Shown in pieces: positions 2,505-32,315 of a DNA stretch of 37,413 nucleotides. The stretch spans positions 1 through 37,413 of the forward strand of contig JAKJDQ010000003.1 of the NCBI GenBank assembly GCA_022705845.1, in the 5' to 3' direction. The notes beneath the pieces were generated by a model that did not search any database, was not told the origin of the DNA, and saw nothing but the letters and a program-made list of their open reading frames with translations. Every line of letters begins with the position of its first letter. Positions within the stretch are counted from its first letter, which is position 1. Source of the stretch: Patescibacteria group bacterium. Its GTDB lineage: Bacteria > Patescibacteriota > Patescibacteriia > Patescibacteriales > Patescibacteriaceae. Both the position numbers and the translations under genes were made by a program.

Positions 2505-2509
2505 AAAAG

Positions 2510-2525
2510 GCTCTTTAATTAGAGC
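2510..2525 (-). promoter_or_regulatory. Small hairpin directly upstream of the 3D-domain start
   Basis: GCTCT / AGAGC with a six-base loop ends five bases before the ATG at 2504. A TTGACA (-35-like) lies at 2592-2597 on the minus strand, inside the longer alternative frame, but no good -10 follows it; this weakly favours the shorter start. Confidence 0.3.
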
Positions 2526-2804
2526 TTTAATAAAAAACAAGCATGGGTAGTATTTAAGGTAATGGGGGACATTAACACAATTACAAAAACTTGTCAACCA
2601 TATATAATCCACCCGCATGGCATTAAATAAGTTCACCCTCATTTTGGATCACAAAGAAAAACAAAATGGGATAAATTGATACAGAGCCTTGCTTTTTCTT
2701 AAAAAGTGTTTTAAGATGTTGTTTGCACCTATCTCAAAACTTTTGGTAAGGGTGGCCAAAAGACTTCAACAAAAAATTAATAATTTTGTTTGAGGTTAAA
2801 TATT

Positions 2805-5933: not shown

Positions 5934-7242
5934 ATAAATTACCCCTTTCTTTATAATTCTTAAACAAACCAAAACTAGCACAAGCTGGCGACAGTAAGAC
6001 CACATCGCCTGTTTTAGCGTATTCTTTAACTAATCTCATGGCCTCATCCATACTACTGGCTAAAAATATTTGCTCAGGCGGATAACCGACTGACAATAAA
6101 CTATCCTTAAGGCGAGGCGAAGCCTCCCCTTCAAATAAAATTACTGCTTTAACTGATTGGCTACGAATCGTTTTAGCTAAAAAAGTAAAATCATTTCCTT
6201 TGTCTGCGCCACCAGCCAATAAAATAATAGGCTCTCTAAAAGATTTAATGGCTATGATGGTAGAATCTGGGTTAGTAGCAAAACTATCATCATAATAACG
6301 AACACCCCCCTTTTCTCCCACCAATTGTAAGCGATGTTCTAATCCCTGGAAATTAGCCACTGCCTTTTTGGCAATAACTGGCAACACACCCACTATCTCT
6401 GTCGCCGCCCAAGCAGCGGCAATGTTTTCTTGATTATGTTCCCCTATTAATTTGCTGGGCCAAGAAAGCCGTCCAAACCATTTTATCTGCCCAGGACAAT
6501 GCTTCTTGTCTAGCCAAGATGATAATTTTTTATTAATAACTAACCAATCTTCTGGATTTTGATGTAAAAAAATTTGTTCTTTTGCCAACCAATAATCAGC
6601 TAAACTTTTATGATAATTAGGATTCAGTGGGTCAGCCGGGGCTAAATGTTCTTCATAAAGATTAGTAATAACAGCAATGTGCGGGCTATGCCTCAAATCT
6701 TCTAGCTGAAAACTGGATAATTCCAAAACTACCAATGATTTCTCAGTTAATTGATCAAAAAAAGCAAACGGCGGTACGCCAATATTGCCCCCTAAAAAAA
6801 CTGGGTAGTTAGCTAATTTTAAAATATCATAAATTAAACTGGCGGTTGTCCCTTTACCTTTACTGCCCGTAACCCCAATAATGTTCTTAGTAGGGCAAAA
6901 CTTAAAAAATAAATTCATCGGGCTATTTAAAACTCCGCCACTTTGTATGGCTTCTTGAATCTGCGGACAAAATATGGGCCAGCCTGGCGAGCGCCAAAGC
7001 TCGTCATAACCTTTTAAAGATTTATATGATTTACGACCTAACTGCCAATTTATAGATAGACCGCCAGTCAAATGGCTAATTCTTTCCTGCTTATCTTCTA
7101 ACGCTGAGGCTTCGCGCCGATCATAAATAGACAAATTTACAGACACGCCCTTGTTGGCGAGCCACAAAATGAGGGCCTCATTTTCTGCTCCTAGCCCTAA
7201 TACGGCAACTTTCTTATTTGAATACTCCTTCAAATTAACCAT
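5917..7242 (-). CDS. murD: UDP-N-acetylmuramoyl-L-alanine--D-glutamate ligase
   Basis: 441 residues, normal MurD length. The N-terminal Rossmann-like UDP-binding domain (VAVLGLGAENEALILWL), the ATP loop GSKGKGTT at 126-133, LELSSFQLEDL, TNLYEEHL and GEHNQENIAAAWAA are all present. The cytoplasmic enzyme adds D-glutamate to UDP-MurNAc-L-Ala in peptidoglycan precursor synthesis. The start codon lies one base after the polA stop, so the two are almost certainly translated from one message. The 3' end overlaps ftsH. Confidence 0.94.
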   Translation of the reverse strand: MVNLKEYSNKKVAVLGLGAENEALILWLANKGVSVNLSIYDRREASALEDKQERISHLTGGLSINWQLGRKSYKSLKGYDELWRSPGWPIFCPQIQEAIQSGGVLNSPMNLFFKFCPTKNIIGVTGSKGKGTTASLIYDILKLANYPVFLGGNIGVPPFAFFDQLTEKSLVVLELSSFQLEDLRHSPHIAVITNLYEEHLAPADPLNPNYHKSLADYWLAKEQIFLHQNPEDWLVINKKLSSWLDKKHCPGQIKWFGRLSWPSKLIGEHNQENIAAAWAATEIVGVLPVIAKKAVANFQGLEHRLQLVGEKGGVRYYDDSFATNPDSTIIAIKSFREPIILLAGGADKGNDFTFLAKTIRSQSVKAVILFEGEASPRLKDSLLSVGYPPEQIFLASSMDEAMRLVKEYAKTGDVVLLSPACASFGLFKNYKERGNLFKQAV

Positions 7243-7243
7243 A

Positions 7244-9910: not shown

Positions 9911-9916
9911 ATCAAT

Positions 9917-9946
9917 ATTATAATTTATTTCTATTATTTTTAGCAA
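9917..9946 (-). promoter_or_regulatory. polA-murD promoter placing the transcript start at the ATG
   Basis: On the minus strand TTGCTA (9941-9946) and TATAAT (9917-9922) are 18 bp apart. A start about seven bases downstream falls on the A of the ATG at 9910, which predicts a leaderless or nearly leaderless message. Confidence 0.6.
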
Positions 9947-9950
9947 TAAA

Positions 9951-9976
9951 ATATACCCGCTTTAAGGCGGGTATAT
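9951..9976 (-). terminator. Terminator of the infB operon
   Basis: Perfect 10-bp stem ATATACCCGC / GCGGGTATAT with a six-base loop, followed on the minus strand by a short T-rich stretch. It stands six bases after the stop of the last operon gene and just before the polA promoter. Confidence 0.75.
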
Positions 9977-9981
9977 TACAA

Positions 9982-10479
9982 TCATCTTAAAGATTCACTT
10001 ATGGCCGACTTCATATCATCACTCCATTTGTCTTGCCAATCAGCAGGCTGATGATCCCAAAATTGAATTACATAAACCCGACCATCCTTAACCATCTTCT
10101 TTTCAAAATTCTGTTTACCTTCATCATCGTCTTTTAGTTGATTCCAGGCATCTTCTGAATAAACCCTAATAACTATCGGCCTGGCATAACTAGGAACGAT
10201 CTCATAGACATAGGCTGGATCGCTAGTAGGTATGAAAAATCTAATCTCTGTATAATCAGTAGCATTGAATCTTTCTGTCTGATAATAAATAAATTCCGAC
10301 GGCAGGTCTAAACGAAATCCTAAGTCTTCATTTCTATAATGATATAAATTATCTTTACCCAATTCGTCCATATTAGGTTCTGCCTTATTGTTTATAACCC
10401 ACCAAAGTAATACTCCGCCAACAATAATTACTAAAATTAATGGCCAAATCCACTTAGGAAATTGCTTGCTTTTAGGCAT
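9982..10479 (-). CDS. Anchored hypothetical protein with a PsbP-like soluble domain
   Basis: 165 residues. One membrane segment at about 10-30 (IWPLILVIIVGGVLLWWVI) anchors a soluble domain beginning YHYRNEDLGFRLDLPSEF. That opening resembles small PsbP-like or related lipid-linked domains in which 'ENGF-like, F-x-Y-P' segments begin the fold, but the resemblance is weak. It has no lipobox. It is the last gene of the infB operon, 20 bases after the two-helix protein and directly before the terminator. Function unknown. Confidence 0.65.
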   Translation of the reverse strand: MPKSKQFPKWIWPLILVIIVGGVLLWWVINNKAEPNMDELGKDNLYHYRNEDLGFRLDLPSEFIYYQTERFNATDYTEIRFFIPTSDPAYVYEIVPSYARPIVIRVYSEDAWNQLKDDDEGKQNFEKKMVKDGRVYVIQFWDHQPADWQDKWSDDMKSAISESLR

Positions 10480-10499
10480 AACTAAACTGTTTAATTTTA

Positions 10500-10733
10500 T
10501 TATTTTTTACCTTTCCCTATGTCCTTAAAATTTTGTTGAATTTGCCATAACCTATAGGCAGTTGACAAAAAAACATAAGCCATTAGCAAAATTACCATTC
10601 CCATAACCAATTTAGCCATAAAGGTGGTCCAGACAGTTAAAAAACTAAGAATTAATAATAAAATACCGACTACGGTTAAACTAATTACTATCTGTTTAAT
10701 TTTTTTATTAATAACTTTAATAGCGTTTTCCAT
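10500..10733 (-). CDS. Small two-helix membrane protein
   Basis: 77 residues with a basic N-terminus (KVINKKIKQ), two hydrophobic segments at about 15-35 and 39-58, and a basic C-terminus (KDIGKGKK). Both ends should be cytoplasmic by the positive-inside rule. It sits in the infB operon between the DHH phosphoesterase and the anchored hypothetical protein. No family is recognised. Confidence 0.6.
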   Translation of the reverse strand: MENAIKVINKKIKQIVISLTVVGILLLILSFLTVWTTFMAKLVMGMVILLMAYVFLSTAYRLWQIQQNFKDIGKGKK

Positions 10734-10789
10734 ATTTATAAATTAAGTTAGTTAATAGATTAAATTATAACATAATTTGTAAGTACTGA

Positions 10790-11755
10790 CTATAATACCA
10801 CTATTTGGCCATCCTCTCCAGACAAAGAACCGTTAAGGCAAAAACCAGCGGCCTGACGATGGCCACCGCCACCCAAAAAATTAGCTAGCATTGACATGTC
10901 AATATCGGCTAAACGAGATCTAAAACTTCCCTTAATCTGACCGCTTTCCGTTTCTATTAATAGTAAAGTGCCAACAACACCTTGAAGACCGCTAATAAGT
11001 CCAATAAGGCCGCTAAGATCATCAACTCCTAGTCCAAATTCAGATAGCTCGTTGTGTTTTACTATAGCTATAGCCACCAGATACTCATAATTAATTTTTA
11101 GACGGCTCAAAACACGGCCCCATAAATGCATAACCGCTAAATTTTTATTAGTTAAAGTCTGCCCCACAATTTTAGGCACCCTAGCCCCCATTAACATCAT
11201 TTTAGCCGCTATTTTAGTAATCCTATCACTAGTGTTGGAATATATAAAATTACCAGTATCGGTTAATAAACCAGCTAAAATTGATTTAGCTATTTCCACA
11301 TTAATCGGCCAGTTAATGGCTAGTAAAAAATTATAAATTATCTCTACTGTAGCGGCGGCTTCGCTTTCTTTAAACTCTATATCAGCATAATCTTCTTGCC
11401 GTTCATGATGATCAAATTCAATAACTGTTTGATCGGAACGGCGGGTATATAGCCAATCTTTTAATTTACTGCGGCTAGCAGTCGCACAATCTACAATAAT
11501 AATAAGATCAAAGTCGTCAAATTGTTCCTTGGTTATTTTGTTTGTTAATTGGTTAATTCTAGATAAAAATCTAAAGTTTTCATCAGGGGCACTAGCACAA
11601 TAAGCTACTGCCGGTTTATTAATAGCAGCGGCTAATTCTAAAAATATATTAGTTGACCCTAAAGCATCACCATCAGGATTAAAATGAGTAGCTATAAGCC
11701 ATCTTTTAGCCTGGCTCATTAATGACCATGCCTGAATAGCTACTGACTTATCCAT
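10790..11755 (-). CDS. nrnA: DHH/DHHA1 phosphoesterase, NrnA-like (nanoRNase / pAp phosphatase)
   Basis: 321 residues. FNPDGDALGS at 25-34, VDCA near 89, the name-giving DHH at 115-117 (EFDHHERQ), then the C-terminal DHHA1 domain with its glycine-rich substrate loop GGGGHRQAAG. NrnA-type enzymes degrade RNA oligomers of two to five nucleotides and 3'-phosphoadenosine 5'-phosphate in the cytoplasm with manganese. Position immediately after rbfA matches the common infB-rbfA-nrnA order in many bacteria, which supports the name over other DHH enzymes such as RecJ or cyclic-di-AMP phosphodiesterase. Confidence 0.88.
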   Translation of the reverse strand: MDKSVAIQAWSLMSQAKRWLIATHFNPDGDALGSTNIFLELAAAINKPAVAYCASAPDENFRFLSRINQLTNKITKEQFDDFDLIIIVDCATASRSKLKDWLYTRRSDQTVIEFDHHERQEDYADIEFKESEAAATVEIIYNFLLAINWPINVEIAKSILAGLLTDTGNFIYSNTSDRITKIAAKMMLMGARVPKIVGQTLTNKNLAVMHLWGRVLSRLKINYEYLVAIAIVKHNELSEFGLGVDDLSGLIGLISGLQGVVGTLLLIETESGQIKGSFRSRLADIDMSMLANFLGGGGHRQAAGFCLNGSLSGEDGQIVVL

Positions 11756-11761
11756 ATAAAA

Positions 11762-12094
11762 TTAAATTGACAACCCATCAATTAAACGATTAAGATGGTC
11801 GGCCTGTTCGGCTGAATTATCAATTAGCCAAATAATTTTGGGCATACGCGGCAATTGACATCGTTTAGTTAAAAGTTTAGCAATTTCGGCTGATTCTTTT
11901 CTTAACTTCTTTAGAGCTGTACCTCGTAAATTAATTGGCAGCACCGACACTCCAACTTTCATTTCTTGGTAATCACCACCTAAATTAACATAAGTAATAG
12001 ATAATAAACCATCAGGAAATTCAACCAATTTATTAACCACATCGGCTATCTCTTGATGCAGAACAACATTAGTACGTTTTAAATTACGAACCAT
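11762..12094 (-). CDS. rbfA: Ribosome-binding factor A
   Basis: 110 residues, the usual size. The single KH-like domain is recognisable from the N-terminal helix (LHQEIADVVNKLV), the strand LLSITYVNLGGDYQEMKVGVSV and the C-terminal RMPKIIWLIDNSAEQADHLNRLI. RbfA helps mature the 5' end of 16S rRNA on the 30S subunit. It starts three bases after the infB stop and ends six bases before the DHH gene. Confidence 0.9.
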   Translation of the reverse strand: MVRNLKRTNVVLHQEIADVVNKLVEFPDGLLSITYVNLGGDYQEMKVGVSVLPINLRGTALKKLRKESAEIAKLLTKRCQLPRMPKIIWLIDNSAEQADHLNRLIDGLSI

Positions 12095-22150: not shown

Positions 22151-22669
22151 ATGAGACACTCATGCTTTTTCATCGCCCTAGTAGGTATCACTCTGGTCAT
22201 TGCTGCTTGTAGCAGCAATACAGCCAGAGTGGAGGTTGGGTTGGACGCCAACGGTCAACAGATTTTAGCTGTTGACGCGAAAGGCGTCCTACCTGCTGAG
22301 AATTGGATCCAGTTGAGGGGTGACCAAGACTGGATAAGTTTACGGGCCTATTATTTGCAAAAGGCCCGTGAAGCTACCACTCCTGAAGCTAGCCAGGCCT
22401 GGTTAGACTTGGCTAATCAGGTGGCCGGACAAGGGACCACTCTGGCAAGACTAGTGAATGCCAGTGATTATCGGATCGTCGTGTTAGATGGTCCCTTCGC
22501 TGGTATTACTCTGGAGCCCGGTGAAACCAGCCCCACCGAGGTCCGGGTACCTGTGGGAAGTTTGATATTTTCCGTTGCCAATTGGGGTTGTGGGTGTAAT
22601 AATTTACGAACAATTATCGTCCGGCAAATTTCGGCCGGACAAAAAACAGTGGTTATTGTTAACAAATAA
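22151..22669 (+). CDS. Hypothetical lipoprotein, GC-richer than its surroundings
   Basis: 172 residues. Signal peptide with lipobox IAAC; the Cys at about residue 20 would be lipidated through Lgt. The mature part shows no recognised domain: AYYLQKAREATTPEASQAWLDLANQVAG looks helical, and the C-terminal half (SDYRIVVLDGPFAGITLEPGETSPTEV) looks beta-rich, with two Cys in GCGCNNLR. The ribosome site AAAGGAGG before the ATG is textbook, unlike nearly all neighbours. Codon choice is richer in G/C (GGC, CTG, GCC, CGG) than the adjacent genes. Single-gene unit between nusA and the pilin array, with its own promoter and terminator. Possible recent acquisition. Confidence 0.75.
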   Translation: MRHSCFFIALVGITLVIAACSSNTARVEVGLDANGQQILAVDAKGVLPAENWIQLRGDQDWISLRAYYLQKAREATTPEASQAWLDLANQVAGQGTTLARLVNASDYRIVVLDGPFAGITLEPGETSPTEVRVPVGSLIFSVANWGCGCNNLRTIIVRQISAGQKTVVIVNK

Positions 22670-22675
22670 CCACTT

Positions 22676-22705
22676 CCCGCTAGTAATAGCGGGTTTTTAT
22701 TTTTT
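22676..22705 (+). terminator. Terminator of the lipoprotein gene
   Basis: CCCGCTA / TAGCGGG with a four-base loop followed by TTTTTATTTTTT. A second perfect 9-bp hairpin (22648-22674) stands directly before it and contains the stop codon in its right arm. Confidence 0.85.
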
Positions 22706-23120
22706 AAGCTGATCCTTGCCCTCCGCTCTCTCCGCCATTTGGTAAATTTTGGAAGATGAAGTAAGTAATAGCGTAAGCTAAAACAACAATAAGAAGTCCA
22801 ATAGCGGCTCGTTGAATAATGTTTTGCGCTTTTTTAACTTGGGTATCATTACCACCAGCGGTCATCCATAATATGCCGGCATAAATCATTAAGATAACAA
22901 AAATGGTGCCCAACAGACCAAGGACTACTTGTATTATAGTGGCTATATTGTCTAATAATGTATTCTCGTTGGTGTTGACGTCATAACTACCCCTAGCTAC
23001 TGACTCCAGATTGTTCATTACCGAACTTGTTGAGTAAGCTTTAACCGTATGGCCACCAAATAATAGTTGACCGACTATAATTATAGTCCAAACGCTTGTA
23101 GCAAATATTTTTTTAGTCAT
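22704..23120 (-). CDS. Pilin-like protein 6 (TrbC/VirB2-type fold)
   Basis: 138 residues. Signal peptide ending near HTVKA; a short polar segment; then two hydrophobic helices joined by the family loop ILWMTAGGNDTQVKKAQNIIQRAAIGLLIVVLAYAITYFIF (quoted in parts: WMTAGGNDTQVKKAQ, IGLLIVVLAYAITYF). A glycine/serine-rich tail (NGGESGGQGSA) follows. The two-helix architecture with a cleaved signal and a cytoplasmic basic loop matches type IV secretion major pilins. Last gene of the pilin-like array, six bases after the previous one. Confidence 0.75.
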   Translation of the reverse strand: MTKKIFATSVWTIIIVGQLLFGGHTVKAYSTSSVMNNLESVARGSYDVNTNENTLLDNIATIIQVVLGLLGTIFVILMIYAGILWMTAGGNDTQVKKAQNIIQRAAIGLLIVVLAYAITYFIFQNLPNGGESGGQGSA

Positions 23121-23125
23121 ATTTA

Positions 23126-23575
23126 TTATGTAGTTATATAATAATCTCTATATTTTAATGGCACATGCTGGACACGAAAAACGACATTTAAGATAAAATA
23201 TGTAATAGCGTAGGCCAATACCACAATAAAAAGTCCAATAGCTGACCGTTGAATAATGTTTTGCGCTTTTTTAACTTGTTCATCCTTACCGCCAGCAGTC
23301 ATCCACAGAATGCCGCCATAGATTATTAAGATAAAAAAGATGACACCAATTAAGCCATAGACGATATTAACAATATTAGCGACTATAGGGAGAACACTGT
23401 CTTTGGTGGTGTCATAACCAGCAACTTCCCCTGTCATTTTAATTGTATTGTCAGAGAAGGCATCCTCAATACCCCGCGCCGTTATAAAGTGCAGAGGCGT
23501 TATTATGGTCATGATCGTTATAATAATAATGACTACACGTTGATTTATTATTTTAAAGAAATGGGATTTTATCAC
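23126..23575 (-). CDS. Pilin-like protein 5
   Basis: 149 residues from a GTG start that overlaps the TGA stop of the upstream paralogue (GTGA). Signal segment VVIIIITIMTIITPLHF with likely cleavage near ITA. The helix-loop-helix core FFILIIYGGILWMTAGGK / DEQVKKAQNIIQRSAIGLF is nearly identical, also at DNA level, to protein 4; the N-terminal third and the C-terminal tail (FRVQHVPLKYRDYYITT) are unrelated to it. Suggests copying or conversion of the membrane core. Confidence 0.72.
   Translation of the reverse strand: MIKSHFFKIINQRVVIIIITIMTIITPLHFITARGIEDAFSDNTIKMTGEVAGYDTTKDSVLPIVANIVNIVYGLIGVIFFILIIYGGILWMTAGGKDEQVKKAQNIIQRSAIGLFIVVLAYAITYFILNVVFRVQHVPLKYRDYYITT
23203..23375. repeat. Direct repeat, copy 1 (core of pilin-like gene 5)
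   Basis: 173 bp matching 23601-23773 at 169 positions by my count (one mismatch near the middle, three near the promoter-distal end of the + strand reading). Covers the two-helix core. Confidence 0.85.
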
Positions 23576-23958
23576 AAAATTTGTTTAAGAATGAAGTAAG
23601 TAATAGCGTAGGCCAATACCACAATAAAAAGTCCAATAGCTGACCGTTGAATAATGTTTTGCGCTTTTTTAACTTGTTCATCCTTACCGCCAGCAGTCAT
23701 CCACAGAATACCGCCATAGATTATTAAGATAAAAAAGATGACACCAATTAACTCATAAACGATATTAACAATAAGTTGTATTTGGCTCAATAAATCGTTA
23801 TCTCTGGGCCCCATCTCCCATTCAGTTATGGTAACCCCATTTAAAAAAAGTTGTTGTGCTTCTTCATTGTCGGCGTGACAAATAAGGGGGATAGGGATAA
23901 TAGTATAGAGACAAATTATTAAAGAAACAATATTAAGTAAAATTTTCTTACGTTTCAT
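23572..23958 (-). CDS. Pilin-like protein 4
   Basis: 128 residues. Signal peptide IVSLIICLYTIIPIPLI with likely cleavage after CHA; short extracellular part (DNEEAQQLFLNGVTITEWEM); core ELIGVIFFILIIYGG, WMTAGGKDEQVKKAQ, SAIGLFIVVLAYAITYF. It ends right after the second helix (KQIL), with no tail. Stop is TGA and overlaps the next start, implying coupled translation with protein 5. Confidence 0.72.
   Translation of the reverse strand: MKRKKILLNIVSLIICLYTIIPIPLICHADNEEAQQLFLNGVTITEWEMGPRDNDLLSQIQLIVNIVYELIGVIFFILIIYGGILWMTAGGKDEQVKKAQNIIQRSAIGLFIVVLAYAITYFILKQIL
23601..23773. repeat. Direct repeat, copy 2 (core of pilin-like gene 4)
   Basis: Partner of 23203-23375, offset 398 bp, four mismatches in 173 positions. 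Confidence 0.85.
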
Positions 23959-23971
23959 AGTGACGCATAAA

Positions 23972-24370
23972 TCATATCAAGGCTTGCCCTATAAACATTG
24001 TTATGGCATAAGCTGAAAGTACTATAATAAGGCCAATAACTGCCGTTGTAATGGTTTTTTGGGCGTTTTTTAGCTGAGTATCATTACCGCCAGCAGTCAT
24101 CCACAGAATGCCGCCATAGATTATTAAAACAAAAAATAATATCCCTACTAAGGCTAAAACAGAGCCAACTATTTGTCCGGCTCTGGACTGAAGCGTAACC
24201 CCAGTTTTTAAACCAGCCTTCGTGGCTGCGGCATCAAGACCAAAAGATTTATCTTCTTCTGCCCTGGCACTAAGTAGAAAGAAATTACTGTGGATTAATG
24301 TCATTGACAGGATAGGTATTCCTATTAACCACACTATATTCTTTTTAATGGGAACTAATTTTTTAGCCAT
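23972..24370 (-). CDS. Pilin-like protein 3
   Basis: 132 residues. Signal segment IVWLIGIPILSMTLIHSNFF, likely cleaved after ARA; extracellular linker (EEDKSFGLDAAATKAGLKTG); core ILFFVLIIYGGILWMTAGG, NDTQLKNAQKTITTAVIGL, then IVLSAYAITMFIGQALI. First gene after the internal terminator at 24424-24453; TATAAT at 24411-24416 (minus strand) may be a -10 for a separate transcript, but no -35 is convincing. Confidence 0.75.
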   Translation of the reverse strand: MAKKLVPIKKNIVWLIGIPILSMTLIHSNFFLLSARAEEDKSFGLDAAATKAGLKTGVTLQSRAGQIVGSVLALVGILFFVLIIYGGILWMTAGGNDTQLKNAQKTITTAVIGLIIVLSAYAITMFIGQALI

Positions 24371-24423
24371 GTAAGACTATTTAAAAATTTTGTCTCAGCA
24401 TAATTACTATATTATACTGAGGC

Positions 24424-24453
24424 AAAATTTGCCAAAACATTTTGGCAAATTTT
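24424..24453. terminator. Hairpin between the two halves of the pilin-like array
   Basis: A 14-base inverted repeat (AAAATTTGCCAAAA and its complement) around CA. A-run before and T-run after allow termination in either direction; in context it should limit read-through from the 24473-25296 genes into the 22704-24370 genes. Confidence 0.65.
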
Positions 24454-24472
24454 ATTTAATAACAGCTAACTT

Positions 24473-24874
24473 TTAGTCGGGTACCGCCGTAGACGGATTA
24501 GTCGCGCTAATTATAGCATTAATAACGAAGGTGCTTAAAGCGTAAGCCATTAAAACAATTACTAGGCCAATAACTGCCGCGGTCATTATTTTTTTAGCCT
24601 TAGCGATTTTGTCTTCACTGCCAGCTGCCGTCATCCACTGAAAGCCAGCTACAATAATTAGGACGACAGCAATAGTTCCTAAAAAGCCAAGCACTACTTT
24701 GATTACATTAGCCACAACATCGCGAGGATCAGTGTCGGATAGTCCTATATTTGCATAGGAGTTTTGAGTATTACCCCAAACGTCTAAGTTTTGCGCATTG
24801 ACTGTGACTGGGGATAAAGAGATTAAACTTGTTGCCCAGACTAGCGACATAATACCAATTAACCATTTTTTCAT
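24473..24874 (-). CDS. Pilin-like protein 2
   Basis: 133 residues. Clean signal peptide (MKKWLIGIMSLVWATSL…VTVNA, cleavage before QNLDVWG); polar linker with SDTDPRDVVANVIKVVLGF; helices LGTIAVVLIIVAGFQWMTA and GLVIVLMAYALSTFVINAI around a charged loop (GSEDKIAKAKKIM); short tail. Closest to protein 1 in the array (shared DPR and GFLGTIAVVLI), so these two form one subgroup and proteins 3-6 another. Confidence 0.75.
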   Translation of the reverse strand: MKKWLIGIMSLVWATSLISLSPVTVNAQNLDVWGNTQNSYANIGLSDTDPRDVVANVIKVVLGFLGTIAVVLIIVAGFQWMTAAGSEDKIAKAKKIMTAAVIGLVIVLMAYALSTFVINAIISATNPSTAVPD

Positions 24875-24906
24875 AATTTTTTGTTAATTATTAATTATAA
24901 AAATTT

Positions 24907-25296
24907 TTAAATTGCATTGCTTAATGCTTTAGTTATAAACATTGTTAGACCATAAGAAGCCAAAATAATTATTAGACCAATAACTGCCGCGGAGATAATT
25001 TTTTGAGCCTTAGCCACATTATCTGGTTTACCGCCGGCAGTCATCCATATGAAGCCAGCATAGAGTATCAATACTACGGCGATAGTTCCTAAAAATCCTA
25101 ATATAATTTTAATAACATCAACTACTATTTGCCGTGGATCCCTTTCTCTAAAACCAATATTATTAAAAGCGCAAGTAGCTATATTACCTTCTCCCCATAG
25201 ATTAACCTGAGCCTTAACTGGCTGAATAGTTAATAGATTGATTATTAAACATTGAGCTAGTAGAAGGGTGGGTATAAATTTTTTTATTAGGTTCAT
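24907..25296 (-). CDS. Pilin-like protein 1
   Basis: 129 residues. Signal peptide (MNLIKKFIPTLLLAQCL…QPVKA, cleavage before QVNLWG); linker with one Cys (ATCAFNNIGFRERDPRQ); helices FLGTIAVVLILYAGFIWMTA and IGLIIILASYGLTMFI with loop GGKPDNVAKAQKIISAA. First gene of the array, with its own promoter upstream, divergent from the penicillin-binding protein gene. In type IV secretion systems such proteins polymerise into pili; here the machinery genes are not in the window. Confidence 0.75.
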   Translation of the reverse strand: MNLIKKFIPTLLLAQCLIINLLTIQPVKAQVNLWGEGNIATCAFNNIGFRERDPRQIVVDVIKIILGFLGTIAVVLILYAGFIWMTAGGKPDNVAKAQKIISAAVIGLIIILASYGLTMFITKALSNAI

Positions 25297-25336
25297 AAAT
25301 TAACTTTATTGAAATATAAAAAATCAATTCGCCATT

Positions 25337-25366
25337 ATTATAACATAGCCTTATATAAGCTAGCAA
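25337..25366 (-). promoter_or_regulatory. Promoter of the pilin-like array
   Basis: Minus-strand TTGCTA (25361-25366), 18-bp spacer, TATAAT (25337-25342) with TGT before it (extended -10). The same hexamers and spacing occur at the polA promoter. Confidence 0.65.
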
Positions 25367-25408
25367 GGGCTGTGGCCTTCTAGCTACTTTTAATTATATA
25401 TAATTATT

Positions 25409-25417
25409 TGCTATAAT
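25409..25417 (+). promoter_or_regulatory. Extended -10 promoter of the PBP gene
   Basis: TGC followed by TATAAT (25412-25417), 27 bases before the ATG at 25444. No clear -35; an extended -10 can work without one. Confidence 0.5.
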
Positions 25418-25443
25418 TCAATAGACAAAGATTATTTTTTATT

Positions 25444-28335
25444 ATGCCCATACCTAAATTAGTTGTCCGCAAACCCTCTCATACCTATACAGCATATGTT
25501 AATCGGACCGGCCATCGTTCATCTTCAATTGTTAAATCAAGGCAACCCAATACTCGACGGCCGACTCGCCGCCGTCTTAATTGGCCTAAGATTATTAAGT
25601 TTTTTGGGGCGTTGCTCATTTTATTTTTAATGATCAGTGTTTTCGCCTTCTGGTGGTTGTCACGTGATTTGCCATCACCTAATAAATTGCTAGAGAGAGA
25701 GATAGCTCAAAGTACTAAGATCTATGACCGTAAGGGTGAAACTATCCTTTATGAGATTCATGGTGATCAAAAAAGAACACTAGTTAATCTTGATCAAATT
25801 CCTGACCATGTTAAGCAAGCAACGATTGCCATTGAAGACAAGGATTTTTATAACCATGGCGCTTTTAGTTTGTGGGCCATGTTCCGCACTGCTGTCACTA
25901 ATGTTTTGTTCCATCGGCGGGCTGGTGGTTCTACTTTAACTCAGCAATTTGTGAAAAATGCCCTATTAACTTCAGAAAAAACATATACCCGCAAGATTAA
26001 GGAGCTTATTTTGGCCTACCGGATTGAAAAGAAATTTTCTAAAGATGAAATTTTACAGATGTATTTAAATGAAATTCCTTATGGCTCCAATGCTTATGGT
26101 GTTGAAGCCGCTAGTCAGCGTTATTTCGGTAAGAGCATTAGTCAGGTAAATTTAGCTGAGGCGGCAATTTTAGCAGCCCTACCTCAAGCCCCAACCCGTT
26201 ACTCACCCTATGGTCCTAACAGAGACACCCTAATAGCCCGGCAACGTTATATTTTAGATTTAATGGCCGAACAAGGTTATATTAGTAAAGAGGAAGCAGC
26301 TGAAGCTAAAGATTTCCCCTTACAGTTTAAGCCCTTACAAGAAAATGGCAATATTATTGCCCCTCATTTTGTGATGGAAATTAAAGGTCAGCTAGCCGAG
26401 AAATATGGCGAAAAAATGCTAGAACAAGGAGGATTAAAGATTTATTCTACTATTGATTTAGAAAAGCAAAAGATTGCCGAAGAGGCAGTAATGACTCAAG
26501 CTGAAAAAAATGTAAAAAATTTTGGCGCTAATAATGCTGCTTTATTTTCTATTGATGCTAAAACGGGAGATATTCTAGCCATGGTGGGCTCTAGAGATTA
26601 TTTTAATGACGATATTGACGGACAGGTAAATTTAACCTTAAGGCCTCGGCAGCCAGGGTCATCTTTTAAGCCCGTAGTTTACGCTACTGCTTTTATGAAG
26701 GGTTATACGCCGCGGACAGTTTTATTTGATGTCGTAACTAATTTTTCTTTAGATCCAGACAAACCCTATGAGCCACATAATTATAATGGTCAAGAATATG
26801 GCCCAGTTACTATGAAGAAAGCTCTGGCCGGTTCACTCAATATTCCAGCCGTTAAAACTTTATATTTGGCAGGCCTAGACGATGTTTTAGTTATGGCTAA
26901 AAATTTAGGCTATACTACCCTAAACGATAAAAGTCGCTTTGGTTTGTCTTTAGTTTTGGGCGGCGGCGAGGTAAAATTAGCCGAGCATGTAGCCGCTTAT
27001 AGTGCTTTTGCGCGTGATGGAGAGATGGTTAAGCCACGTTATATACTAAAAGTGGAAGATAAAGATGGTAAAATTCTTGAAGAGACTCAGCCGGAACATA
27101 TTAAAGTTTTGGAGCCGCAAATTGCCAGAGAGATAAATGATATTCTTAGTGACAACGATGAACGTATGTATATTTTTGGGGCTAAAAATCATTTAACTCT
27201 TAATGATCGGCCGGCAGCTGTTAAAACTGGCACTACTAATGATTATAAAGATGCATGGACTATTGGTTACACCCCGTCAATTATTACCGGGGTTTGGGTT
27301 GGCAATAATGACAATAAATCAATGAGTAAAGGGGCTGACGGTAGCGTAGTCGCTGCTCCAATCTGGCAAAATTATATGAATCGTATTTTAACTGGCACCC
27401 CGGTAGAAACATTTAAAAAGCCAGAAATTGAAGATACCGGAAAACCTGTTTTAGATGGAGTCATCCCGACCACTACCGTAGTTAAGGTAGATAAAGTCTC
27501 TGGATTATTGGCTACTAGTTCTACACCACCCGATATGATTCGCGAAGACCGTTATTGGCAAGGACATTGTATTCTTTATTATGTTGATCGCGAAAATCCT
27601 CGCGGGCCAGCGCCTACTAACCCTGGAGCTGATCCCCAATTTGCTTCTTGGGAGGCGGGGGTTAAGAGTTGGGCCGAGAGACAGAAACTTAATTTAGCTG
27701 AACCGCCCAAAGACAGCGATAATTTACATATTCCTGAGAATCAACCCGATTTAACAATTATTAGTCCATCACCAGGACAAAATATTAGTAATCATAGTTT
27801 ATTGGTTAATGCTACTGCTATTGCGCCCCGGGGGGTTAAAAGTTTTAATATATATATTAATGGCTTTTTGTTAAAAACTATTAATGGCGATAGTTTAAAT
27901 GAAGTTATCAGTCTTGATTTTTTGCCCAATGGTCAGCACAAAATAGCCCTAGAGGCTTGTGATGATGTTAAAAATTGTACTAAACACGAGCTTACTATTA
28001 TCTTGGAGGGTGGTGATAATATCAATAATTTAACCATGGATTGGCTATCCCCTGGCGATGGTTTGACTTATCGGGCAGCTGATTTTCCTGTGGCCCTTCA
28101 GCTTAAAATTAGTAATTTTAAGCTAGCCCATAAAATTAAAGTATATTACAAAATTAAAGGTTCTTCGCCCCAGCTTATTACTGTCGTCCAGCCGGACGAT
28201 AATGGCCTAGCTAATATTAATTTTCCCCAGCCAGCTGAAGGTAATGGTACTTATGTAATAACAGCAGAGGCAGAATTGTGGACCGGAGAGATCGTTACTA
28301 GTTCCGGACTTACTTTATTGGTGAGAGGATTATAA
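25444..28335 (+). CDS. Class A penicillin-binding protein (transglycosylase-transpeptidase) with C-terminal Ig-like extension
   Basis: 963 residues. Basic cytoplasmic N-terminus (RRPTRRRLNWPK), one membrane segment (about 52-73), then a GT51 glycosyltransferase: IEDKDFYNHGAFS with Glu131, GGSTLTQQFVKN, RKIKELILAYRIEKKFSKDE, LNEIPYGSNAYGVEAAS. The transpeptidase has SSFK at 406-409, SLN at 464-466 and KTGT at 594-597, all intact. After about residue 770 come beta-rich Ig-like segments (PDLTIISPSPGQNI, FNIYINGFLLKTING, LDFLPNGQHKIALEA) and a second similar unit, perhaps wall- or pilus-contacting. It polymerises and crosslinks peptidoglycan outside the membrane. Its 3' end is one base from the convergent ROK gene. 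Confidence 0.94.
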   Translation: MPIPKLVVRKPSHTYTAYVNRTGHRSSSIVKSRQPNTRRPTRRRLNWPKIIKFFGALLILFLMISVFAFWWLSRDLPSPNKLLEREIAQSTKIYDRKGETILYEIHGDQKRTLVNLDQIPDHVKQATIAIEDKDFYNHGAFSLWAMFRTAVTNVLFHRRAGGSTLTQQFVKNALLTSEKTYTRKIKELILAYRIEKKFSKDEILQMYLNEIPYGSNAYGVEAASQRYFGKSISQVNLAEAAILAALPQAPTRYSPYGPNRDTLIARQRYILDLMAEQGYISKEEAAEAKDFPLQFKPLQENGNIIAPHFVMEIKGQLAEKYGEKMLEQGGLKIYSTIDLEKQKIAEEAVMTQAEKNVKNFGANNAALFSIDAKTGDILAMVGSRDYFNDDIDGQVNLTLRPRQPGSSFKPVVYATAFMKGYTPRTVLFDVVTNFSLDPDKPYEPHNYNGQEYGPVTMKKALAGSLNIPAVKTLYLAGLDDVLVMAKNLGYTTLNDKSRFGLSLVLGGGEVKLAEHVAAYSAFARDGEMVKPRYILKVEDKDGKILEETQPEHIKVLEPQIAREINDILSDNDERMYIFGAKNHLTLNDRPAAVKTGTTNDYKDAWTIGYTPSIITGVWVGNNDNKSMSKGADGSVVAAPIWQNYMNRILTGTPVETFKKPEIEDTGKPVLDGVIPTTTVVKVDKVSGLLATSSTPPDMIREDRYWQGHCILYYVDRENPRGPAPTNPGADPQFASWEAGVKSWAERQKLNLAEPPKDSDNLHIPENQPDLTIISPSPGQNISNHSLLVNATAIAPRGVKSFNIYINGFLLKTINGDSLNEVISLDFLPNGQHKIALEACDDVKNCTKHELTIILEGGDNINNLTMDWLSPGDGLTYRAADFPVALQLKISNFKLAHKIKVYYKIKGSSPQLITVVQPDDNGLANINFPQPAEGNGTYVITAEAELWTGEIVTSSGLTLLVRGL

Positions 28336-28336
28336 T

Positions 28337-29179
28337 TTAAATTAATAAACTAGCCCCTATAGCTGCAGCTTTTTGATTTTGTCCGATAATCCATTTAGGC
28401 CTATTAGGGGTTAGGCTTCGTTCGTTTATTATTTGTTTTACTACTGGTAAATAGGTTTTATAGTATCGGCTAACTCCTCCAGTTAAAATTATTACTTCAG
28501 GATTGAGGAGGTTATTGAGATTAACCATAGCTAAACCTAGGATTTTGGCAAATTTTTTTACTTTTTGTTGCGCCTGAGAATCGCCCTCTTGGGCAGCAGT
28601 AAAGAGGCGGCCGGCCGGATGACCCATTATTTTGTGGTAATAATATTCTAAATCAACTTCAGTTTGTTGATCAATAATCATGTGCCCAATTTCACTGCTG
28701 ATACCTAATTCGGGGATAATATTTTTTCCATTTATAGCAATTGCTCCTCCAATGCCAGTACCGAGGGCTAGCACCACAAAAGTTGTGGTTTTTAAGGATT
28801 GGTGGCTCATTAAATAGGCCCGCAGAAAACAATTAACATCATTATCTAATGATATTTTTTTATCAGGAAATTCTTTAGCTAGAAGGTTATTTAAATTTTT
28901 GTTGTTTAATACAGTTAGGTTAGGACAATTTATTATTTGGCCGTTTTTAATTATTCCAGGTATGCCAATTCCAATAGTCTCAGGAACACTTTTTATTTTA
29001 TCGGCCGCCCTAATTAATCGTTTAATTTCTAGATTAATTTGCTCAATTAATACTGGCAGGCTATCTTTCATAATTGGCTGTCGATGGGCAGCATAGACCT
29101 TTCGGCTCTGCTGGTTATATAACAGGCCAAAAATTTTAGACCCTCCAATGTCTAACCCTATGCTTAGTTGTTGTTTCAT
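28337..29179 (-). CDS. ROK-family sugar kinase lacking the zinc motif
   Basis: 280 residues. Phosphate-binding loop IGLDIGGSKIFGLLY, catalytic Asp114 in LDNDVNCF, second ATP loop LALGTGIGGAIAINGKN, and the adenosine region EVIILTGGVSRYY. After the conserved GIS-EIGHMIID the usual cysteine cluster (CxCGxxGCxE) is replaced by QQTEVDLEYYYHKIMG, so the structural zinc site is gone. Family members phosphorylate glucose, N-acetylglucosamine or similar sugars, or act as repressors; no helix-turn-helix is present, so a kinase is likely. Start overlaps the upstream stop as ATGA; last gene of the sugar module. Confidence 0.87.
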   Translation of the reverse strand: MKQQLSIGLDIGGSKIFGLLYNQQSRKVYAAHRQPIMKDSLPVLIEQINLEIKRLIRAADKIKSVPETIGIGIPGIIKNGQIINCPNLTVLNNKNLNNLLAKEFPDKKISLDNDVNCFLRAYLMSHQSLKTTTFVVLALGTGIGGAIAINGKNIIPELGISSEIGHMIIDQQTEVDLEYYYHKIMGHPAGRLFTAAQEGDSQAQQKVKKFAKILGLAMVNLNNLLNPEVIILTGGVSRYYKTYLPVVKQIINERSLTPNRPKWIIGQNQKAAAIGASLLI

Positions 29180-30195
29180 AAAGATTGGCTAAAAAGATTT
29201 TTAATAAATTCCCAATATTCACTATTACCATTTACTTCTTTTTCCCAATACCACCATTCTACCCCCCAAAGATAAAAAGTTTTAAAACCACCTTGGCGGC
29301 TGTATTCTAGGATGTCTTTTAATTTGTCTAAATTCATTGTTCGATCTCTTTCCTCTTTTGGTAAAGTGAAATAAGGCTGACGACCCCATGGCTCAGCCTG
29401 CATTTCAATAACAATGATTTTAGCATTAGTAAATAATTCAGTAATATTAGCCTTTATTCTAAAAAAGTTAGGAGTGAATGGATAGGTTATATAATGTTTG
29501 AGGGTTTTGCTATAGGTATGGCGATAGATTGAGGTGCCCATGATATCGGCTCGTTTGGCAGCGGGAATCCAAACACTTAACTCTCCACTGTCAGTGATGA
29601 TAACTGGTTTTTTAGTATTTTGGCGAGCTAGGGCTATCTCTTTGTCTAAAAGTTTAATATCTAGTTTTGGGCATTCGCCAAAGCCAATTAAAAATGGCTC
29701 ATTTTCTATTTGCCAGGCAATTACCATGGGGTTATTGTCATATCTATTAATAGTTTCTCGGATATAATTAAGTAATTTTGTTTGTTGATTTTCTTTATCC
29801 TGCTGGGCATACCATTCTGGATAGTGACATTCTGGCCAGCGAGGCAAGCGGGCCCCAACGGCTAAAATTATATCTACCCCTCTTTGGCTTGCTTGATCTA
29901 TTTGCCAATCTAATTGGCTAAAATCATATTCTCCTTCATTTTTTTCAATTATTGGCCAATAAGCTATTAATCTTAAATGTTTAACCTTTAGATCATCTAG
30001 CATTTCAATATAAGCATCACGCCAATCTAAGCCCATATCATTTAAAACTAATGGGGAAAAAGTTAAGCCATAGGTAAGTTCTTTTGGCGGGTAGATTGTC
30101 CGTTGGGTTAGTCTAATCCAGAGTAAACTGAGGATTATCAAGCAGGTCAGAATAATAACAAAACGTCGCCAATGTTTCTTGATTTTCTTTATCAT
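29176..30195 (-). CDS. Membrane-anchored (beta/alpha)8 glycoside hydrolase
   Basis: 339 residues. N-terminal anchor (VIILTCLIILSLLWI, about 13-27) with the barrel outside the cell. Clan-A features: LRLIAYWPIIEKNEGEYDFSQLD on strand 2-3, VIAWQIENEP with acid/base Glu166, and IIVIEMQAEPWG with nucleophile candidate Glu264. The pattern resembles GH5/GH42-like beta-glycosidases; the exact family and substrate cannot be fixed by eye. It overlaps both neighbours by four bases (ATGA), so the three genes are translationally coupled. Confidence 0.8.
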   Translation of the reverse strand: MIKKIKKHWRRFVIILTCLIILSLLWIRLTQRTIYPPKELTYGLTFSPLVLNDMGLDWRDAYIEMLDDLKVKHLRLIAYWPIIEKNEGEYDFSQLDWQIDQASQRGVDIILAVGARLPRWPECHYPEWYAQQDKENQQTKLLNYIRETINRYDNNPMVIAWQIENEPFLIGFGECPKLDIKLLDKEIALARQNTKKPVIITDSGELSVWIPAAKRADIMGTSIYRHTYSKTLKHYITYPFTPNFFRIKANITELFTNAKIIVIEMQAEPWGRQPYFTLPKEERDRTMNLDKLKDILEYSRQGGFKTFYLWGVEWWYWEKEVNGNSEYWEFIKNLFSQSL

Positions 30196-31139
30196 AATAA
30201 TAAAAACAGTCCTATATTAATTAAAATAATACCAATTAGTTTATGCCAGATATTATCGCGATTAATTTCTTGTTTAAGTAGCTTGGGATAGTGTTTGCCC
30301 ATAAAGAAGACGATTATTAGTAAAAATAGATATTGTAACCCTTGCAGACTGTTGACTAAAGAAACATCAGCTAATGATATAGCAAAATTAGTCATTACAA
30401 AGGCAATGAAGGCTGCTAACCGGATACCCAAGAATAGCGGCCAACTTTTTACAGTGGCCTGACGTCGCGGGCGATTAAAAATTAGCTTTCTATTTCTGGC
30501 TGGAACTAATAGTAATAAGGCCCCTAGAAAACTACCCAGCCTAGTCCAGATGAATGAATTAGCAAAACCCTGAGAGTCATATATAAATTTTATAAATACA
30601 TAGTAAGTCGCAAAAACAAAAGAAGCCACTAGAGAGTTAAATAAAAGACGGCCAGTACTGCGCATGCTGGCTTTATGGGGTTGGAGAAATTTTTTTATTT
30701 TAATCCACCATTTATGCCAAAGAGTGTCGTGGGGGTTAAAAGAAACAAAACCACTGCCGACAATTAAAATAATAAGGGCTGCCAACTCTTGTGATGTTAA
30801 ATTGTGTCTGCCGATTAAAAAATTTAAAAGCAGGGTAAAAAATGGGATAAAAGAGCCAGCTATTGGTACTACTTTAGTTGTTTCACCTTGATGTAGTGCT
30901 TTATACCAAAAATAGAGGGCGGCCATAAAAATTAAACCAGCCAAAAGATCTAATAATAGCCAGCCAAACGTTGGTATGTGTCGATTAAATATAAAAAGAA
31001 CGCAATTGCCAATACTCCAGATGCCCACATAAAAGGCGTAAGATACCGAAGAATGAACTTTTTGTGACAGGAAATACTTATCGGCCAAGTATACTACTCC
31101 ATTTAAAAGATTAGCTAAAATCGTAATTATTAGCCACAT
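30192..31139 (-). CDS. EamA/DMT-superfamily transporter
   Basis: 315 residues with about ten hydrophobic segments in two related halves; the first starts IITILANLLNGVVYLADKYFL and contains ALYFWYKALHQGETTKVVPIAGSFIP (the EamA end-of-helix pattern, quoted in parts: YKALHQGETTKVVPI), the second ends LIGIILINIGLFLLL. EamA proteins move small metabolites and, in some cases, sugars. Its place between two glycosidases suggests a sugar or disaccharide substrate, which is inference. It starts three bases after the GH1 gene. Confidence 0.82.
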   Translation of the reverse strand: MWLIITILANLLNGVVYLADKYFLSQKVHSSVSYAFYVGIWSIGNCVLFIFNRHIPTFGWLLLDLLAGLIFMAALYFWYKALHQGETTKVVPIAGSFIPFFTLLLNFLIGRHNLTSQELAALIILIVGSGFVSFNPHDTLWHKWWIKIKKFLQPHKASMRSTGRLLFNSLVASFVFATYYVFIKFIYDSQGFANSFIWTRLGSFLGALLLLVPARNRKLIFNRPRRQATVKSWPLFLGIRLAAFIAFVMTNFAISLADVSLVNSLQGLQYLFLLIIVFFMGKHYPKLLKQEINRDNIWHKLIGIILINIGLFLLL

Positions 31140-31142
31140 ATT

Positions 31143-32315
31143 TTATAATCCATTGTTTTTACAAATATTAGCATAAACCTTGCTACTGGGGCGGGGTTGG
31201 CGTTTAAGTGAGGGGTAATCAACGGTATAAAGCCCAAATCGAGGCGTAAAGCCCTTATCCCACTCAAAATTATCCAATAATGACCAATAAAAATATCCTT
31301 TTATATCACAACCATTCTGGATAGCCCGATGGACCATCTTTAAGTGCTCTCTAATAAAATCTGCCCTGTATTGATCTTTGGCGTCAGCTATTCCATTTTC
31401 TAGAATATAAATGGGCAAATTATATTTTTTAGCTGACATTAAAACATCGTATAATCCATAAGGATTTATGGGCCAGCCCAAATCGCTATGTGGTAAGTTA
31501 TCTAAAGAACGTCGTCCTAGACCAATTAGTTTATAAAAATAGTAATTAATACCTAGATAGTCTTGGTAGCCGCTAATTTTTTGAAAAAAATAATCATTTA
31601 TAATGTACTTGGCAATTTTATTTATTTTTTTATTAAACCAATAGTCATTAACTGGTTCAAAATACTGGCTATTATTGGCAATGCCTACTAAGCATTTTTT
31701 ATTGGCTAAATGCAGGCTTTGATAAGCCAAGGAGTGGGCTTGAATTAGATTGTTTACCACCTTTTGCCAGGCGTTTAAATTTCTCTTTTGCGGTGGCCAA
31801 TGACCTCGCCCATAAGCATTCCAGGCGTAAATCATCGGTTCGTTAATAGTGCACCAAATTTCTACCCCAGTAATATTTTGGGCCAGATAGATGACATAAT
31901 TATTAAATATGTGTGGCGCAGCCTGATTTTCCCAGCCGCCGATAGTTGAAAACCATAGTGGATGAGTAAAATGATGAAGAGTAACTACGGGTTTAATTTT
32001 TTGTTTGAGGCATTCATTAATTACTGCTTGGTAGTGCCGTAAGGCTTTAGTATTAAATTGTCCTTGTTTGGGTTCAATCCGGCTCCATTCAATAGAAAAG
32101 CGGTAGGCGTTATTGTTAAGTTTTTTAGCCAGACTGATATCTTTTTTAAAGTAATGATAGGAGCCACAAGCAATACTGGACATAGATCCATCAATTGTTT
32201 TACCCGGTTCCCAGACAGACCAATCATTAAGATTGTTGCCCTCTGTTTGGTGGGCAGAAGTAGCGGTGCCCCAAAGAAATTCTTTAGGAAAATGGTATAA
32301 TATTTGAGAAGTCAT
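31143..32315 (-). CDS. GH1 beta-glycosidase (beta-glucosidase-like)
   Basis: 390 residues, a little shorter than the 440-470 usual for GH1. N-terminal signature FPKEFLWGTATSAHQTEG, YRFSIEWSRIEPKQGQ, TLHHFTHPLW, acid/base TINEP (Glu159), nucleophile ILENG (Glu306), and the C-terminal aglycone site YFYWSLLDNFEWDKGFTPRFGL. No signal peptide, so cytoplasmic: it would split beta-glucosides or beta-galactosides after uptake. The start MTSQILYHFPKEF is the only well-placed ATG. First gene of the module. Confidence 0.92.
   Translation of the reverse strand: MTSQILYHFPKEFLWGTATSAHQTEGNNLNDWSVWEPGKTIDGSMSSIACGSYHYFKKDISLAKKLNNNAYRFSIEWSRIEPKQGQFNTKALRHYQAVINECLKQKIKPVVTLHHFTHPLWFSTIGGWENQAAPHIFNNYVIYLAQNITGVEIWCTINEPMIYAWNAYGRGHWPPQKRNLNAWQKVVNNLIQAHSLAYQSLHLANKKCLVGIANNSQYFEPVNDYWFNKKINKIAKYIINDYFFQKISGYQDYLGINYYFYKLIGLGRRSLDNLPHSDLGWPINPYGLYDVLMSAKKYNLPIYILENGIADAKDQYRADFIREHLKMVHRAIQNGCDIKGYFYWSLLDNFEWDKGFTPRFGLYTVDYPSLKRQPRPSSKVYANICKNNGL

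Follow-up and report, generated by a model that had tools for sequence, protein, structure and literature searches.

Six small genes of one design lie in a row in the chromosome of a Patescibacteria group bacterium, next to a gene for a class A penicillin-binding protein (PBP), and the locus raises the question of what these six proteins are and what they might build. The DNA analyzed here, referred to as the window, is the whole stretch of 37,413 nucleotides (nt) from contig JAKJDQ010000003.1 of assembly GCA_022705845.1 (positions 1 to 37,413, forward strand). The array consists of six contiguous minus-strand open reading frames (ORFs), arranged head to tail from 22704 to 25296, which encode proteins of 128–149 amino acids (aa) and are named P1 to P6 in the order of transcription; the P4 stop and the P5 GTG start overlap by 4 nt (GTGA). 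An earlier note on this DNA had extended the array to 25366, about 70 nt upstream of the actual P1 start at 25296. All six proteins exceed the gathering cut-off of 26.6 bits of the Pfam family PF18895 (T4SS_pilin), with 28.0–41.7 bits, E-values of 1.3e-10 to 2.3e-6, and coverage of at least 55 of the 71 profile positions. Because every member of the array passes this curated cut-off, its assignment to the family is far beyond chance. We consider it probable that the array provides six VirB2-like pilins of a chromosomal type IV secretion system (T4SS) in a Falkowbacteria-like (Patescibacteria) cell. We favor this polymer/T4SS reading because all six proteins belong to PF18895, VirB4 and PrgI are encoded in the genome, PF18895 is nearly universal in these bacteria, the pilin types are ordered, and essential pilins have been published.

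P1 to P6 share a signal peptide, a short variable head, a two-helix hairpin, and a WMTA(G/A)G loop. The common plan of signal peptide, variable segment, two helices, and WMTAGG-type loop that the earlier note had described was therefore borne out, and its view of the proteins as VirB2/TrbC-type pilin-like is supported by the PF18895 matches. Hydropathy profiles of all six show a signal-like stretch at the N-terminus and, further on, two helices that are strongly hydrophobic and separated by a loop with a net charge of +1 to +2. The AlphaFold2 model of P2 (mean pLDDT 78) is a hairpin of helices 50–82 and 87–125 with a poorly predicted head; as modeled, this hairpin would neither prove nor exclude pilin packing. 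Foldseek (PDB) and VIA searches with the P2 model gave a helical-hairpin background from which conjugative pilins did not stand out, and both are uninformative. A profile of the six proteins, run against the sequences of solved structures, matched helical proteins by chance only, chiefly the C5a receptor (best E-value 0.017), and was discarded. No type IV pilin or N-terminal methylation family appeared among the Pfam and NCBIfam rows of any of the six.

PF18895 is present in all 41 genomes of the order, at 4–19 places each (E≤0.001), and in 186 of 192 genomes sampled across the phylum (E≤1e-5). The present genome (570,569 bases in 49 contigs, 95% complete) has 15 such places at E≤0.01, 12 of them over the cut-off; one relative, on contig C2, reaches 24.0 bits with the Pfam TrbC/VirB2 family PF04956 (cut-off 27.9). 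Secretion genes are encoded elsewhere in this genome. A VirB4 ATPase (NF045971, 351.3 bits, cut-off 325) and a PrgI/VirB3 protein (PF12666, 38.2 bits, cut-off 27) are encoded on contig C40, together with a TrsD-like protein of 225 aa, a probable TrsD that stays below the cut-offs (PF11130, TraC_F_IV, 28.0 versus 28.1 bits; NF041427, 30.1 versus 200 bits). Of the trio VirB3/PrgI, VirB4, and TrsD that marks an MPF-FATA-like T4SS, two members are over their cut-offs and the third is a candidate just under one of them. Two further C40 proteins gave no family match: a multi-span protein of 893 aa, placed like VirB6, and one of 210 aa, placed like VirB8. A VirD4-like ATPase on contig C21 matched coupling-protein models below their cut-offs. 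The search for VirB4, VirB6, and VirD4 that the earlier note had recommended thus yielded VirB4 over its cut-off, a VirD4-like candidate below, and a VirB6-like candidate by position only. Searching for PF03432, the sole relaxase family included, gave no match in the present genome at its 95% completeness, and the T4SS is chromosomal and apparently non-conjugative. All seven genomes checked contain virB4. It lies on a different contig from the array in the present genome, and in the one-contig genome G012 the two are found at 313 kb and 848 kb, respectively. The idea that a six-member set without linked secretion genes is unusual was not upheld: VirB4 and PrgI are present on C40, the separation from virB4 recurs in every genome checked, and such arrays have been published (PMC12102498).

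In a FastTree phylogeny built from 121 pilin domains over 80 columns and rooted at the midpoint, the six proteins form two subgroups, type A (P1 and P2) and type B (P3 to P6, node support 0.94), so that the division into members 1–2 and 3–6 first read from the sequence was recovered. P1 and P2 cluster with the leading genes of other arrays, as well as with pilin modules from the giant fusion proteins described below; a genus-level group unites P4, P5, and P6. From one genome to another, the array positions are for the most part orthologous. A motif check of 12 arrays (G000, G001, G003, G004, G005, G006, G009, G012, L057, L060, L080, and L089) placed type A at position 1, or at 1 and 2, in 11 of them and at position 3 in L089, never later. 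The motif expression is our own; among 29 giant or otherwise large frames it found 18 strict matches and missed near variants. As the array is ordered with type A first, its members look like dedicated subunits and not like interchangeable antigens, and two classes in a constant order make a mixed-subunit assembly plausible. In genome G005, two neighboring array pilins share a single frame of 279 aa, in which a signal-like remnant separates them (L138:8940-9779, minus strand). This may be an internally cleaved precursor, a true fusion, or an assembly error; with a cleaved precursor or an assembly error possible, we set it aside as a sign that neighboring subunits act together.

Between the two types, in the P2-P3 intergenic region, lie two strong, AU-rich hairpins (z = -5.8 versus 200 shuffles), the first of which is kept in the closest relative with a name, Candidatus Falkowbacteria bacterium UBA1359 (DBRV01000003.1; L053), which carries the same six-gene array. 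They were not listed by a consensus terminator scan, probably because they are poor in G+C. Of the terminator postulated at this boundary, the hairpins are real, and the function is a reading: they are probably a terminator, an attenuator, or an operator. A promoter-like site for P3 is located at 24435-24406; the promoter scan as a whole returned 16 sites versus 13.2 ± 3.4 in shuffles and is uninformative.

The heads and cores of the pilins evolve differently. Over the 15 pairs of paralogues, identity is 36–87% in the core and 8–33% in the head, and the pooled ratio of nonsynonymous to synonymous divergence (dN/dS) relative to UBA1359 is 0.11 for cores and 0.30 for heads (our own Nei-Gojobori counts, with saturated synonymous sites in the P3 head), which confirms the conserved core and variable ends noticed at the outset. 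Such heads could serve as antigenic-variation or host-range cassettes, with one or a few pilins used at once and heads swapped by recombination, an idea also proposed for the Bartonella VirB2 copies according to PMC12102498. P4, whose core is identical to its UBA1359 counterpart in 60 of 66 aa and its head in 18 of 58 aa, speaks for such a use, as do the P4 and P5 cores, which are 91% identical at the nucleotide level within the window, and the mosaic of synonymous divergence (pS) from UBA1359. The pS values are 0.51–0.57 for dnaA, dnaN, holA, and nusA, 0.56–0.69 for four genes beyond the PBP, and 0.63–0.69 for P1 to P3, and fall to 0.44 for P4, 0.39 for P6, and 0.16 for P5, the last compared with 0.51–0.69 in most flanking genes. 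This mosaic suggests recombination that is not confined to the pilins, since pS is also lowered in the PBP gene (0.38) and in the gene for a 172-aa predicted lipoprotein (0.37). Furthermore, the comparison with UBA1359 gave no sign of positive selection, the heads being without dN/dS above 1 (pooled 0.30), and positional orthology and the constant type order extend across genera. After these tests we do not favor cassettes, which appear very unlikely; the faster-evolving heads look like subunit-specific ends instead. The earlier proposal of mixed-subunit pili or pores with selectable surface parts accordingly keeps its first half, mixed assembly, as plausible given the constant type order, and loses its second, as no dN/dS exceeds 1 and the positions are orthologous.

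Outside the window, the pilin hairpin is joined to much larger proteins. Two adjacent plus-strand genes on contig C36 (L016:3599-6187 and 6197-11962; G000), conserved across the order, encode proteins of 862 and 1921 aa. Each opens with a signal-like stretch, continues with a type-A hairpin, and then has Big_5 domains, to which the 1921-aa protein adds TIG and fn3 domains. With the 1921-aa protein as query, 35 of the order's 41 genomes matched the body, in frames reaching 2593 aa, and the pilin module stands in the same long frame in at least 29 of those genomes. A tandem partner of 612–908 aa accompanies the giant in 14 of 15 fetched loci, and the fifteenth lies at a contig end. At class level, 15 of 38 sampled genomes match the 1921-aa giant at E≤1e-30, the longest frame having 4681 aa. 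Among the pilins of the window, P2 and P1 come closest to the giant module (Table 1).

A second fusion class of 240–517 aa consists of the hairpin and a C-terminal domain. Such genes lie near what we take to be rpoC in the present genome and UBA1359, and next to a presumed leuS-like gene in G012, the names being recognized from sequence. From 87 pilin-containing frames of at least 230 aa we took 40 mid-sized fusions from 17 genomes of the order, leaving out 29 frames that were giant or large, 10 that came from the PBP loci of lineages outside it, and 8 more (with a C-terminal pilin, one double pilin, and one of 245 aa); the loci had been fetched because long frames were already listed and are not a random sample. 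Of these 40, 19 (in 13 genomes) match a Pfam domain of hydrolase type at E≤0.001: SLT in seven, M15/VanY in five, NlpC/P60 in three, C39 in two, and an amidase and a 3D domain in one each. The hydrolase domain is above its Pfam cut-off in 18 of the 19, and the pilin domain is over its own in 7, the other 12 scoring below it and being assigned with our own profile. In the present genome, contig C35 encodes pilin-hairpin fusions of 494 and 398 aa (L019:7618-11180, plus strand), the second of which ends in an M15/VanY-like peptidase; relatives carry SLT, C39, NlpC/P60, or amidase domains instead.

The wide fusion to adhesin-like and enzyme domains, together with the distance of the array from virB4, would also fit a PF18895 hairpin that is a generic membrane anchor of unrelated surface proteins, independent of any T4SS. 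Such an anchor leaves conserved, ordered multi-gene arrays of bare hairpins unexplained, and is at odds with the co-clustering of the pilins with virB4 in 1135 of 1948 assemblies (PMC12102498) and with the essentiality of the pilin subunits in Southlakia epibionticum, where they are encoded inside the T4SS cluster (Wang et al., 2023; PMC10633639). We regard it as most unlikely.

If the array does encode T4SS pilins, sequence and family suggest that each would be exported by Sec, lose its signal peptide, and form a two-helix hairpin in the membrane, its positively charged loop facing inward and its two ends lying outside. The subunits would then be drawn into a short pilus or channel by the VirB4/PrgI machine, whose genes are elsewhere in the genome. 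This assembly may be a heteromer by design, the observed operon order being one or two type-A subunits first and then several of type B. The giant Ig (immunoglobulin-like)/TIG/fn3 proteins headed by a type-A module could enter this assembly as well and bring adhesins to the cell exterior, and a third set of hairpins, tethered to peptidoglycan hydrolases, may open the wall as VirB1 does elsewhere.

Several observations weigh against this reading. No filament has been demonstrated for any PF18895 protein in the literature examined. The array is unlinked to virB4 in 7/7 genomes, and the putative VirB6- and VirB8-like labels on C40 are given by position and appearance only. Scores for P1 to P6 stay below the cut-off of the mycoplasma pilin-like family NF045849 in all six cases (24.7–34.4 versus 40 bits), with a similarity that is recognizable (E-values of 1.4e-5 to 1.3e-8), and PF04956 gave no row for any of them at E≤0.1. 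The Foldseek search with the P2 model, uninformative as noted above, gave no match at E≤0.001. The type-A nodes of the tree, including the join of P1 and P2 with the giants, have weak support (0.63–0.65).

An alternative is that the hairpins form a hetero-oligomeric membrane ring or pore, as a T4SS base or channel, and never polymerize into a pilus. Gram-positive T4SSs are generally without a pilus (PMC10633639; PMC12102498), giant and enzyme domains would be easier to place at a fixed base, and the P2 model is just a helical hairpin. The many paralogues and their near-universal retention fit a polymer better, as do the family name and the weak similarity of P2 to the VirB2 model PRK13857 (18.3 bits, below the cut-off); we therefore consider a ring or pore unlikely. 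Beyond the pilin reading itself, we tentatively put forward the bolder possibility, which we would not yet call probable, that the PF18895 pilin is a modular delivery platform in this group: a heteromeric T4SS filament or base of types A and B into which giant adhesins and tethered hydrolases (SLT, M15, C39, NlpC/P60, amidase) are inserted. These would take the place of the VirB5 tip adhesin and the wall-opening enzyme VirB1, both mostly missing from such systems, and a single filament would then bind a host cell and cut through the wall of that cell or its own. We infer that a hairpin-tethered transglycosylase or peptidase could substitute directly for VirB1.

These findings bear on how Patescibacteria attach to and feed on their hosts. 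No role is known for the T4SS of these bacteria, which the array suggests to be built of two ordered pilin classes, and the pilin-headed, adhesin-like giants and the wall-cutting enzymes are concrete candidates for proteins that contact the host or take the missing VirB1 step. Since the type-A module is common to array pilins and giants, their co-assembly is directly testable.

By gene content, the array contig (C19, at least 37,413 bases) is the region of the chromosome origin. It carries rnpA-, yidD-, and yidC-like genes, dnaA at 16868, dnaN at 18463, and then holA- and nusA-like genes, all names being recognized from sequence. As the earlier note had stated, the divergent neighbor of the array is a class A PBP, here with one Big_7 Ig-like domain above its cut-off; it is 91% identical to that of UBA1359. 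The functional tie implied with the pilins is unsupported. Among 80 PBP loci, many of them fetched with short flanks, five had at least six pilin ORFs in those flanks (L053, L057, L060, L080, and L089), one had an incomplete pilin ORF where the contig ends, 12 had a single pilin-domain ORF, and 62 had none. The main arrays of the family (G001, G003, G004, G005, G006, G009, and G012) lie within a few kb of nusA in six of seven cases and of the PBP in five of seven, the contig or fetched piece ending first in the others. In G012, L060, and L080, array and PBP are separated by about 3 kb of genes that by eye look glycosyltransferase-like, and the gap in G009 is similar (3–4 kb range overall). With these intervening genes and most PBP loci lacking an array in their flanks, we set aside a functional pairing; the link is best read as a conserved origin-proximal neighborhood in which the PBP is a positional neighbor. 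The 12 single pilin-domain ORFs (156–560 aa) belong to other Patescibacteria lineages and lie ~5–8 kb beyond the PBP (L106, L108, L109, L112, L115, L117, L120, L121, L123, L128, L130, and L131).

Table 1. Coordinates of the array genes and adjoining features in the window, in the order of transcription of the array.
Feature	Coordinates	Strand	Remarks
Class A PBP with Big_7 Ig domain, divergent neighbor	25444..28335	+	TIGR02074 535.7 bits (cut-off 508.75); PF17957
P1-PBP intergenic region	25297..25443	.	Two minus-strand sigma70-like sites (consensus scan); site count not above shuffles
P1, type-A T4SS pilin, first array gene	24907..25296	-	129 aa; PF18895 28.0 bits (cut-off 26.6); 49% over 91 aa to giant fusion pilin module
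P2, type-A T4SS pilin	24473..24874	-	133 aa; PF18895 39.0 bits; 58% over 95 aa to giant fusion pilin module; AlphaFold2 hairpin
P2-P3 intergenic region	24371..24472	-	Two adjacent perfect hairpins of 14 and 11 bp; promoter-like site for P3
P3, type-B T4SS pilin	23972..24370	-	132 aa; PF18895 33.7 bits; groups with first type-B genes of other arrays
P4, type-B T4SS pilin	23572..23958	-	128 aa; PF18895 41.7 bits
P5, type-B T4SS pilin	23126..23575	-	149 aa; GTG start; PF18895 38.7 bits
P6, type-B T4SS pilin	22704..23120	-	138 aa; PF18895 31.9 bits

The 172-aa predicted lipoprotein (22151-22669, plus strand) converges on the array end; it is 86% identical in UBA1359 and has no family match over a cut-off. 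Downstream of the PBP, the minus strand of 28337-32315 encodes, as far as the sequences can be recognized by look, a ROK kinase-like protein, two glycosidase-like proteins, and an EamA-like transporter. A 235-aa secreted protein is encoded at 1935-2642 (minus strand), and its C-terminal stretch resembles, by eye, a 3D-type cell-wall domain.

The six-gene array is of an already published kind. Quinonero-Coronel et al. (2025; PMC12102498) report VirB2-like pilins in 1,948 assemblies with VirB4 and 441 arrays of 2–11 genes in 383 assemblies, with T4SS genes near dnaA. Their definition of an array is 2–11 pilin genes that follow one another directly or are interrupted by a single non-pilin gene, at E<0.001 and more than 50% profile coverage; the six contiguous genes fall within this definition, VirB4 is encoded in the same genome, and the proximity to virB4 that is frequent, not required, in that study is not seen here. 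The arrays described there are likewise PF18895 genes, tandem, divergent, chromosomal, and near dnaA in some classes, and a relaxase match is missing here too (PF03432 only). Unlike them, the present array is far from virB4 and has two ordered classes, and its core identity reaches 87% (P4/P5) compared with a maximum of 54% in that study, apparently for whole proteins. Similarly, the T4SS of Candidatus Southlakia epibionticum has six pilins (PMC12857230), with the difference that those are encoded inside the T4SS cluster and ours on a contig separate from virB4 (PMC10633639). The pilin-like protein of Mycoplasma integrative and conjugative elements (NF045849, Mbov_0395 family) is similar to P1 to P6, but all six remain below its curated cut-off. 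For the pilin fusions outside the window, no description was found in the literature searched, including the passages of PMC12102498 and PMC12857230 consulted. The closest parallel to them is offered by the modular type IV pilins (Raynaud et al., 2021; PMC8179133), in which a pilin module is likewise fused to modules for adhesion or peptidase activity, to be displayed on a filament. That filament is another one, whereas the module here is the PF18895 T4SS hairpin, and the fusions would represent a new variant.

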